DNA of 64,000 bases, from positions 2,824,001 through 2,888,000 of the forward strand of contig NZ_JARBAX010000001.1 in the NCBI RefSeq assembly GCF_028807635.1, read 5' to 3'. This stretch comes from Streptomyces spiramyceticus. GTDB lineage: Bacteria; Actinomycetota; Actinomycetes; Streptomycetales; Streptomycetaceae. How positions within the stretch are numbered: the first letter of the stretch is position 1; each line of letters opens with the position of its first letter. The notes beneath the pieces are model-generated. The model had not been told where the DNA came from and made no database searches. It saw only the letters and a program-made list of their open reading frames with translations. Below, in pieces: positions 39,603 through 41,548 of the stretch. The translations under genes were made by a program, and so were the position numbers.

Positions 39603-39639
39603 AATTGCCCCCTCCGCTTCTATCGCGGAGAGGGCAATT
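39603..39639 (-). terminator. Hairpin terminator after the sulfur-carrier gene
   Basis: AATTGCCC-CTCCGC and GCGGAG-GGGCAATT arms pair with small bulges around a short loop, 20 bases after the sulfur-carrier stop. Confidence 0.8.
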
Positions 39640-39659: not shown

Positions 39660-39935
39660 TCAGCCGCCTGCGACGGCCGGAATGATCGAAACACCGGCGC
39701 CGTCCGGAGTGGGCGTGTCGAGCCCCTCCTCGAAGCGCACGTCGTTGTCGTTGACGTACACATTCACGAAGCGGCGCAGCTTGCCCTGGTCGTCCAGAAC
39801 GCGGGCCGCGATGCCCGTGTGGTTCTTCTCCAGGTCGGCGATGACCTCGGCGAGGGTCGCGCCCTCGGCCGTCACCTCGGCCGCGCTGTTCGTGTACGTA
39901 CGGAGAATCGTGGGGATGCGGACGTTGACGCTCAT
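39660..39935 (-). CDS. Ubiquitin-like sulfur-carrier protein (MoaD/ThiS/CysO type)
   Basis: A 91-residue beta-grasp sulfur carrier: 'VNVRIPTILRTYTNSAAEV' at the start, 'LRRFVNVYVNDNDVRFEEGL' in the middle, and the free C-terminal 'IPAVAGG'. The final Gly-Gly is adenylated and turned into a thiocarboxylate by an E1-like enzyme, which then gives sulfur to a synthase. The start overlaps the stop of the threonine-synthase-like gene by four bases (ATGA), so the two are made together, and both lie behind a SAM riboswitch. CysO in mycobacteria pairs with a cysteine synthase; here the partner is a threonine-synthase homologue. No molybdopterin gene is nearby. Confidence 0.93.
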   Translation of the reverse strand: MSVNVRIPTILRTYTNSAAEVTAEGATLAEVIADLEKNHTGIAARVLDDQGKLRRFVNVYVNDNDVRFEEGLDTPTPDGAGVSIIPAVAGG

Positions 39936-41248
39936 GCGAGGCCAGCCTCTCGGAAAGAGTCCAGGTTGGGGCGGATGACGGCGGACTGGCCCGTGGTCGG
40001 GGCAACCGCCTCAAGAGTCTTCAGGCCGTCGCCCGTGTTGAGCACGACGGTGGTGAGCGTCGGATCCAGCAGCCCGGCCTCGATGAGCTTCTTCGTCACG
40101 CCGACGGTCACGCCGCCCGCGGTCTCCGCGAAGATGCCCTCGGTCTCGGCCAGCAGCTTGATCGCGTCCACGACCTGCTCGTCGTTGACGTCCTCGACCG
40201 CGCCGCCCGTGCGGCGGGCGATGTCCAGGACGTACGGGCCGTCGGCCGGGTTGCCGATCGCGAGCGACTTGGCGATCGTGTTCGGCTTCTGCGGCCGTAC
40301 GACGTCGTGCCCGGCCTTGAACGCGGTCGACACCGGCGAGCAGCCCTCCGCCTGGGCGCCGAAGATCTTGTACGGCTTGTCCTCGACCAGGCCGAGCGCG
40401 ACGAGCTCCTTCAGCCCCTTGTCGATTTTCGTGAGCTGCGAGCCCGAGGCGATCGGGATGACGATCTGGTCCGGCAGCTGCCAGCCGAGCTGCTCGCAGA
40501 TCTCGTACGCCAGGGTCTTGGAGCCCTCGCCGTAGTACGGGCGCAGGTTGACGTTGACGAAGCCCCAGCCCTCGCCCGCCGGGTCGCCGATGAGCTCCGA
40601 GCAGAAGCGGTTGACGTCGTCGTAATTGCCCTCGATGCCGACCAGGTCGCCACCGTAGACGGAGGCCATGACGACCTTGCCCTGCTCCAGGTCGTGCGGG
40701 ATGAACACGCAGGAACGGAAACCGGCCCGAGCGGCGGCGGCGCCGACCGCGCCGGCCAGGTTGCCGGTGGAGGAGCAGGAGAGGGTGGTGAAACCGAACG
40801 CGCGGGCGGCCTCGACGGCGATGGCGACGACACGGTCCTTGAAGGAGTGCGTCGGGTTGCCGGAGTCGTCCTTGACGTACAGGCCGCCGGTGACGCCCAG
40901 CTCGCGGGCGAGGTTGTCGGCCTTGACCAGCTTGGTGAAGCCGGGGTTCAGGCTCGGCTTCGACGCCACGTCGGCGGGGACGGGAAGCAGCGGGGCGTAA
41001 CGCCAGATGTTGTCCGGACCGGCCTCGATCTGCTTGCGCAGCGCGTCGGCGTCGCCGAGGGGGAGGTCGTATGCGACTTCGAGCGGACCGAAACAGGAAG
41101 AACACGCGAAGATCGGACCGAGTTCGAATCGCTCTCCGCACTCGCGGCAGGAAAGCGCGGTGGCGGGGCCCAGGTCTACGGGCAGGGAATTCGTGGCGCT
41201 TGCGTCGGCGTTTGCGTTCGCGTCGGTTTCAGCAGTCTGCACAGCCAT
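39932..41248 (-). CDS. thrC: Threonine synthase family PLP enzyme; candidate sulfur-carrier-dependent homocysteine synthase
   Basis: A 438-residue fold-type II PLP enzyme. An N-terminal zinc-ribbon-like CREC...CSSC pair lies near residues 35-55. The PLP lysine is in 'DDSGNPTHSFKDRVVAIA' near 130, 'SCSSTGNLAGAVGAAAARAG' follows near 165, and the glycine loop 'PIASGSQLTK' near 265 binds the cofactor phosphate. By family it would convert O-phosphohomoserine to threonine. Two features argue for another use: it overlaps a sulfur-carrier gene by four bases, and a SAM riboswitch leads the operon. Streptomyces normally have a separate hom-thrC-thrB operon. So I suspect replacement by sulfide from the carrier, giving homocysteine. 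Start at the ATG at 41248. Confidence 0.92.
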   Translation of the reverse strand: MAVQTAETDANANADASATNSLPVDLGPATALSCRECGERFELGPIFACSSCFGPLEVAYDLPLGDADALRKQIEAGPDNIWRYAPLLPVPADVASKPSLNPGFTKLVKADNLARELGVTGGLYVKDDSGNPTHSFKDRVVAIAVEAARAFGFTTLSCSSTGNLAGAVGAAAARAGFRSCVFIPHDLEQGKVVMASVYGGDLVGIEGNYDDVNRFCSELIGDPAGEGWGFVNVNLRPYYGEGSKTLAYEICEQLGWQLPDQIVIPIASGSQLTKIDKGLKELVALGLVEDKPYKIFGAQAEGCSPVSTAFKAGHDVVRPQKPNTIAKSLAIGNPADGPYVLDIARRTGGAVEDVNDEQVVDAIKLLAETEGIFAETAGGVTVGVTKKLIEAGLLDPTLTTVVLNTGDGLKTLEAVAPTTGQSAVIRPNLDSFREAGLA

Positions 41249-41267
41249 GGTGGCGAGGCCCTTTCTC

Positions 41268-41391
41268 CTCATCTTCCCCACGACGCATTTCGCCGTGAGA
41301 CGGAATTGGCACCGTCCCCACCGTTACCTCGCGGTCGGCGGAATGGTTGCCGGGACTTCAACGGGCCGTTCCCTCTGTCCCTCTGGATGAG
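41268..41391 (-). promoter_or_regulatory. SAM riboswitch (S-box) upstream of the threonine-synthase-like gene
   Basis: Read on the minus strand from 41391, closing stem P1 is CTCATC (41386-41391) with GATGAG (41268-41273). Between them are the S-box core pieces in order: AGAGGGACAGAGGGAACGG, then GGCCCGTTGAAGTCCCGGCAACC (given here in two parts, GGCCCGTTGAA and GTCCCGGCAACC), and GGTGCCAATTCC. The order and spacing match SAM-I aptamers. The last P1 strand runs straight into GAGAAAGGG, which can serve as the ribosome site of the gene at 41248. SAM binding should therefore act on translation. Confidence 0.85.
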
Positions 41392-41548
41392 CGCTATGGC
41401 ATCGGAGCTGGGACCCGATGCATTTGTTCCACGCGACCACCCCGACATGCGACGGTGATCCGCGTTGTTCAAGACTGTAACCGAAGGCCCGGACGCTTGA
41501 GATAGTCGTCCGCACCGCGAGATGGATCATACGGAGTAGGAGAGGCGC

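Follow-up and report, generated by a model that had tools for sequence, protein, structure and literature searches.

A SAM-I riboswitch, a threonine synthase-like enzyme and a sulfur carrier in Streptomyces spiramyceticus: a candidate homocysteine synthase system of Actinomycetota

In a 64,000-nucleotide (nt) stretch of the Streptomyces spiramyceticus genome (assembly GCF_028807635.1, contig NZ_JARBAX010000001.1, positions 2,824,001 to 2,888,000; hereafter the window), an S-adenosylmethionine (SAM)-I riboswitch precedes two overlapping genes, one encoding a pyridoxal 5′-phosphate (PLP)-dependent threonine synthase-like enzyme that we call ThrC2, and the other a small sulfur carrier of the ThiS/MoaD family (Table 1). 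ThrC2 is probably the missing homocysteine-making enzyme of many actinobacteria. The riboswitch lies 17 nt from the ThrC2 start codon, and the ATG of the carrier gene (91 amino acids) shares four bases (ATGA, 39935-39932) with the ThrC2 stop codon. A sequence-only reading of this DNA had described an S-box aptamer at 41268-41391, followed by a threonine synthase family gene with a four-base overlap into a carrier ending in Gly-Gly, and profile searches recovered each of these parts.

Table 1. Features of the riboswitch-ThrC2-carrier locus (window coordinates)
Feature	Position	Strand	Evidence
SAM-I (S-box) riboswitch aptamer	41266-41393	minus	RF00162, 76.5 bits, E 3.4e-16
ThrC2, PLP-dependent threonine synthase-like enzyme, proposed homocysteine synthase (438 amino acids; ATG 41248, stop 39932)	39932-41248	minus	TIGR00260 268 bits, PF00291 220 bits, separate clade
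CysO-like sulfur carrier (ThiS/MoaD family), C-terminus PAVAGG	39660-39935	minus	PF02597 61.3 bits
Inverted repeat AATTGCCC-T-CTCCGC / GCGGAG-G-GGGCAATT, just past the carrier stop	39603-39639	minus	By eye

A cmscan search of the whole window gave a single Rfam match above its gathering score, the SAM family RF00162, aligned over the full length of the model (positions 1-108) and within 2 bases of the previously described aptamer at each end. With a score so far above the gathering score of 44.4, this is a strong SAM-I match, and a chance RNA match was rejected. The strands of the P1 stem read CUCAUC and GAUGAG, and the 3′ strand continues into GAUGAGGAG, likely the ribosome-binding region. 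A terminator scan of the window's leader gave none on the same strand. Because the P1 3′ strand abuts the ribosome-binding region at this 17-nt spacing and no terminator was detected, control is likely exerted at the level of translation, and SAM would be expected to shut off the operon.

The 80 best relatives at the locus are all from Streptomyces and are 85-94% identical. All 80 have a same-strand open reading frame (ORF) that ends in PAVAGG (or PAIAGG) plus zero to two residues, and 79 carry the exact SAM-I core pattern together with GATGAGGA, the remaining locus (L027) having a core with a one-base variant. In these loci the P1 3′ strand GATGAG continues into GAGGAG or GAGGAAA. GATGAGGA was present in 79/79 loci with the exact core and stood 16-21 nt ahead of ATGGC in 78, the scan using a fixed 50-base frame in which one locus has no ATGGC. 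The exact P1 5′ strand was missed in seven loci, six of which show part of the 5′ half of the aptamer, while L091 shows unassigned sequence there. Since the riboswitch core, GATGAGGA and the carrier end recur across 80 Streptomyces loci, the arrangement is not due to chance; it is also conserved well outside the genus.

ThrC2 scores 268.3 bits on the threonine synthase model TIGR00260, for which the curated cut-off is 167.1, and belongs to the PALP family (PF00291), while on the cysK model it reaches 32.1 bits against a cut-off of 351; its best families are ThrC models. Protein searches returned close relatives only among the best 120 of 7999 and of 8000 rows, and all names given in the 120 listed rows were threonine synthase. 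That annotated function, a second threonine synthase placed under SAM control, therefore has the family score and every listed name in its favor. Against it, the source genome assembly (7.08 Mb, 2 contigs, 99.98% complete) already has a canonical thrC (322 bits) among its 11 PALP genes, in the order lysA-hom-thrC-thrB-rho (neighbors judged by eye) and apart from the window locus, as the sequence-only reading had expected of a separate threonine operon. On the strength of that gene order, ordinary thrC was rejected as an identity for the window gene. A second place matching TIGR00260 was likewise found for 74 of 80 ThrC2 genomes by manual count, with at least two matches in each of the 80. Moreover, a threonine synthase has no need of a sulfur carrier, nor would the methionine-specifying T-box described below suit one. 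We consider a second threonine synthase hardly credible.

The sequences of the two enzymes also set them apart. In a tree of 37 of 108 ThrC2 proteins, 15 of 30 canonical ThrC, 19 of 20 other proteins fetched and the protein encoded at L006, ThrC2 formed its own clade with support of 100/99. The L006 gene (L006:1462-2613, minus strand) encodes a third threonine synthase-like protein of the source genome, PRK06450-like below the cut-off, with a very long branch and a signature of its own. An alignment of 108 of 109 ThrC2 proteins (one row was lost to a length filter) with the 30 canonical ThrC revealed 28 columns in which each group is conserved to 90% or more and yet the residues differ between the two, a further point against a shared threonine synthase function. 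Among these columns are canonical S160, N162, R165 and N193, which by alignment correspond to S155, N157, R160 and N188 of PDB 1UIM. We take 1UIM to be the threonine synthase of T. thermophilus, and these four residues to lie around the phosphate of O-phosphohomoserine. ThrC2 has N234, R236, Y239 and S268 there (98-100% of 108), as opposed to S, N, R and N in 100% of the 30 ThrC. R236 and Y239 occur in 108/108 ThrC2 and K274 in 107/108, and R236 and K274 could stand in for the lost phosphate-site residues. Because the PLP-lysine motif SFKDR is kept while invariant pocket residues differ, ThrC2 would not simply be a ThrC: its altered pocket could accommodate a different nucleophile or substrate. 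Among 20 other ThrC-like proteins, the canonical signature was complete or almost complete in 3, and 17 had neither signature. An N-terminal four-cysteine CxxC...CxxC motif resembling a zinc ribbon is present in 105-106 of 108 ThrC2.

The product of the second gene is a ThiS-family protein (PF02597) with the C-terminus AVAGG, that is, Gly-Gly. In a sample of 298 Actinomycetota genomes, 109 of which have ThrC2, a carrier homologue lies directly downstream of ThrC2 in 90 (91 raw matches, a distant one at L244 being discounted), and PA[VI]AGG occurs within the last 12 residues of 88 of the 91 raw matches, some with 1-6 residues beyond it. In Streptomyces, 49 of 80 carriers (loci L026-L105) end in GGC; this additional Cys would either have to be taken off or have its own function. 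The source genome encodes four ThiS-family carriers and a MoeZ (755 bits, cut-off 647), and the window carrier shares 57% identity with the CysO-like one that lies next to CysM. This likeness, and the listing of the pair with the cysM cluster in part of a published expression study (PMC2267785), would favor a second carrier-dependent cysteine synthase, a CysM/CysO paralogue using O-phosphoserine or O-acetylserine. However, the source genome already has CysM, CysO and, near them, a JAMM-type peptidase (73.8 bits on the desampylase model, below its cut-off of 130); ThrC2 is closer to ThrC than to CysM; and a SAM-I riboswitch or methionine T-box suits methionine rather than cysteine. A cysteine synthase is thus very unlikely.

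Streptomyces grow without methionine. In the source genome, neither metX nor metY was found in the search that the sequence-only reading had suggested, nor was metA: the best MetX match had E 4.6e-5 (6 of 22 first-look candidates scored), profile search gave no MetA and no DUF39, and the best match to the MetY model TIGR01326, at E 5.7e-60, presumably comes from L013, a cystathionine enzyme that reaches 342.7 bits on this model (cut-off 495). Another known homocysteine route was rejected for this genome on the failure to find MetX, MetA, MetY and DUF39. Five proteins exceeded the PF01053 cut-off, and of the three examined none was MetY: L013 is cystathionine gamma-synthase/lyase-like, L014 is cystathionine gamma-lyase-like, and L015 (L015:1381-2001, minus strand) is methionine-gamma-lyase-like with its N-terminal half absent in this frame, perhaps a broken gene. 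Other PALP genes include a CBS (L003) and a CysK/CysM-type synthase.

Across the 298 genomes ThrC2 is a sharply bounded class, with scores of at least 377 bits in 108 genomes and 284.9 bits for a single copy containing a stop (G270), other listed matches reaching at most 215.1 bits. With MetX called above 300 bits and MetY at E below 1e-80, thresholds set by eye at a gap, the 109 ThrC2 genomes comprised 71 with neither enzyme, 30 with both, 2 with MetX only and 6 with MetY only, while MetX or MetY was found in 142 of the 189 ThrC2-negative genomes (neither in 47/189; Fisher p 1.3e-11, a value that ignores phylogeny). The 71 genomes span 26 families and 47 genera; many of the assemblies are drafts, and auxotrophs may be among them. 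MetA was found in none of the 71 and DUF39 in one (G165). In 29 of the 71, no PF01053-like (MetB/MetC/MetY-like) enzyme was detected among the up to five first-look candidates scored per genome, absence being defined as the lack of any TIGR01326 match at E 1e-10 or below. Lacking a cystathionine- or MetY-type enzyme, these 29 would therefore have no transsulfuration or acyl-homoserine sulfhydrylation by the genes found; the carrier lies beside ThrC2 in 28 of them, and SAM-I upstream in 17 of 20 examined. Seventeen genomes of the same genus as the source genome are taken to be Streptomyces because the 80 best locus relatives all are; in 11 of them neither MetX nor MetY was found. In G092, G132, G146, G259 and G279, all of this genus, metY and metX lie side by side by coordinates, besides ThrC2.

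This pattern bears on the possibility that homocysteine is made by transsulfuration, with L013 acting as a plant-like cystathionine gamma-synthase on O-phosphohomoserine and ThrC2 serving some other role in SAM metabolism. The family of L013 also includes cystathionine gamma-lyase activity. L013 matches the cystathionine gamma-synthase model PRK07811 at 678 bits, over its cut-off, and according to part of one report plants form cystathionine from O-phosphohomoserine and cysteine (PMC13257386). Yet ThrC2 is kept in the 29 of 71 genomes in which no such enzyme was detected, a gamma-lyase role for L013 would fit with CBS in reverse transsulfuration, and the sole SAM-I found in the source genome sits on ThrC2. 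We judge transsulfuration to be a very improbable explanation.

The riboswitch was surveyed with strict filters in 80 of the 109 ThrC2 genomes, hand-picked to leave out near relatives. SAM-I was found anywhere in 71 of the 80; in 67 it precedes ThrC2 on the same strand by less than 600 bp, and in 57 it is the sole SAM-I found; both carrier and SAM-I adjoin ThrC2 in 58, and SAM-I without a counted adjacent carrier in 9. Since a further SAM-I in G163 lies ahead of metY-metX, this riboswitch class marks known homocysteine genes as well. In the parts seen of one paper, Streptomyces metE, metH and metK are described as being without SAM riboswitches (PMC4365011). A laxer scan of 16 loci (the 13 without adjacent SAM-I, plus G013, G262 and G054) found SAM-I before ThrC2 in G013 (L238) and G262 (L173) and not in G054. 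No SAM-I was found in G003. At the place upstream of ThrC2 that the riboswitch takes in relatives, this genome has a T-box (L179:636-904, plus strand); it matches RF00230 at 75.1 bits (E 1.6e-16), short of the gathering score of 93, and by eye ends in a hairpin and T-run immediately ahead of the ThrC2 start codon. In its specifier loop the consensus GAAa-UUC-a is replaced by GAAC-AUG-A (columns read by eye), and its antiterminator bulge UGGU fits discriminator A; the specifier, as read from the alignment, is AUG, methionine. Five genomes of family f16, namely G007 (L188), G021 (L183), G033 (L198), G043 (L220) and G054 (L234), have ThrC2 without an adjacent carrier. G007, G021, G033 and G043 were also without SAM-I in the 80-genome survey, and the five ThrC2 loci gave no Rfam family match at E 0.05; this lineage may operate or control the system differently.

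The only SAM-IV riboswitch found in the source genome (C1:1339488-1339604; L001:1501-1617, minus strand) is upstream of a SufS-family cysteine desulfurase (ORF L001:2-1342, minus strand; 253 bits, below the cut-off of 475) that adjoins a trpD-like gene by eye. From the gene order, we take this desulfurase to be the homologue of SCO2146. One might speculate that it supplies the carrier sulfur, both SAM switches then serving one pathway.

SCO4293-SCO4296 of S. coelicolor presumably have the same gene order as the window locus. In the portions seen of an expression study, the sulfate assimilation group includes SCO4293 (putative threonine synthase; table value 0.15) and SCO4294 (conserved hypothetical; 0.20) alongside cysM, cysN, cysD, cysC, cysH and ssu genes, which by its account have a single distinct expression pattern in common; the section concerned does not discuss SCO4293 and SCO4294 (PMC2267785). 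Excerpts of other papers place SCO4293 and the cysteine desulfurase SCO2146 both within five "Type V" genes (PMC3293853) and give SCO4293 an ArgR box at position -7 (PMC5839063). A 2006 survey of ThiS/MoaD operons has the cysteine synthase type in Streptomyces, and in its main text, as far as seen, "threonine" appears once, for a residue (PMC1779556). In the open-licence literature we found no proposal of this function for the ThrC2-carrier pair.

Taken together, the phylum-wide gene pattern, the methionine-specifier T-box in G003 and the co-expression list (in the part of PMC2267785 consulted) support the methionine branch that the sequence-only reading had proposed, and it is very probable that the ThrC2 operon serves methionine and homocysteine supply. 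While this role is well supported, the substrate and chemistry are deduced from context. It is likely that ThrC2 makes homocysteine from O-phosphohomoserine in a carrier-dependent reaction, by the full mechanism that follows. MoeZ would adenylate and then thiocarboxylate the C-terminal Gly of the carrier, with a cysteine desulfurase or some other rhodanese donor as the probable source of sulfur. ThrC2 would take O-phosphohomoserine, already made for threonine, and eliminate the phosphate via PLP, whereupon the carrier thiocarboxylate would add at C-gamma, as opposed to water at C-beta in threonine synthase. Release of the carrier-homocysteine adduct would follow, possibly through the JAMM-type peptidase in the way that CysO-Cys is released. 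Methylation of homocysteine by MetE/MetH is established biochemistry and would complete the route. When SAM is plentiful, its binding to the aptamer would stabilize P1, affect the ribosome-binding region and stop translation. With more reserve, we favor regarding ThrC2 as a new family of ThrC-derived PLP homocysteine synthases that perform gamma-replacement on O-phosphohomoserine with a protein thiocarboxylate, as the main route in Streptomyces and many other Actinomycetota in which no known one was found, so that threonine and methionine would part at O-phosphohomoserine.

Several observations weigh against this proposal. We know of no gamma-replacing enzyme of the PLP fold type of ThrC2, and the pocket residues N234, R236, Y239 and S268 and the PRK07811 match of L013 have been mentioned. 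The route is not exclusive, given that 38 of the 109 ThrC2 genomes have MetX, MetY or both (MetX in 32, MetY in 36), and MetX or MetY in 6 of the 17 same-genus genomes (MetX 6, MetY 5); the absences are not absolute either, since only the best 5 or 6 loose first-look candidates were scored in the MetX/MetY searches. The counted adjacent carrier is missing in 19 of the 109 (at L238, only 88 bases follow ThrC2), and adjacent SAM-I in 13 of the 80 surveyed (G010, G006, G003, G021, G072, G007, G033, G040, G030, G043, G051, G165 and G131). Finally, SAM or methionine control of true hom/thr genes is reported for other phyla in the parts seen of two papers (PMC12452182, PMC4239095).

O-phosphohomoserine is proposed as the substrate because alternatives were eliminated, and not from a conserved binding site. 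A homocysteine synthase using another carbon substrate (homoserine, aspartate semialdehyde, or acyl-homoserine from an unknown enzyme), or free sulfide as the donor in vivo with the carrier as a delivery aid, would account for the replacement of the presumed ThrC phosphate-site residues and for SAM-I lying upstream in 9 of 14 examined among the 19 ThrC2 genomes without a counted adjacent carrier. Set against this are the genomes with no MetX or MetY found and MetA in 0/71, the thrB of the source genome (by eye), which makes O-phosphohomoserine available, and the co-conservation of the carrier with its GG end. Such a synthase is unlikely, if worth keeping in mind.

Past the carrier stop, the inverted repeat of Table 1 possibly marks the end of the operon; it has no T run and was not called by the terminator scan. 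Beyond the carrier lie genes for a cold-shock-like protein and then GroEL (by eye). Among the neighbor clusters displayed for ThrC2 loci, inspection by eye showed a glycosyltransferase, a CorA-like protein, GroEL and others, and no further conserved methionine genes were seen.

If correct, the proposal fills a homocysteine gap in the ThrC2 genomes where MetX and MetY were not found (71/109, MetA being found in none and DUF39 in one of these 71; and 11/17 of the same genus), corrects the threonine synthase label on every named relative listed, adds gamma-replacement to the PLP family of ThrC2, and brings the supply of methyl donor in major antibiotic producers under a SAM switch.

In its overall outcome, the conversion of O-phosphohomoserine to homocysteine, the proposed reaction resembles the O-phosphohomoserine sulfhydrylase activity that part of one paper reports in plants and suggests for T. 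kodakarensis TK1449, although the enzyme there is cystathionine gamma-synthase/beta-lyase-like and the part seen mentions no carrier (PMC5120207). With ThrC (TIGR00260; PDB 1UIM, 2D1F, 2ZSJ and 6CGQ), ThrC2 shares its family, the SFKDR motif and a presumed substrate pool, and differs in its separate clade, in N/R/Y/S for S155/N157/R160/N188 of 1UIM, in the four-cysteine motif, and in having a carrier and SAM-I as partners. CysM/CysO is the mycobacterial thiocarboxylate-dependent cysteine synthase system, working with MoeZ and the JAMM peptidase Mec. Like it, the window pairs a PALP-family PLP synthase with a ThiS-family, GG-ended carrier (the two carriers being 57% identical) in a genome with MoeZ and a JAMM-type peptidase; unlike it, the enzyme is of ThrC type, the product would be homocysteine, control is by SAM-I or a methionine T-box, and the locus is separate. 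Lastly, the HcyS/MetY protein-thiocarboxylate methionine route of Wolinella succinogenes, reportedly described by Krishnamoorthy and Begley in 2011 (work cited in PMC5764234), is said to employ MetY as the synthase on an acyl-homoserine, whereas here MetY was not found in the source genome and the enzyme is ThrC-like; in both, as reported for Wolinella and as proposed for ThrC2, a ThiS-family carrier would feed homocysteine synthesis.

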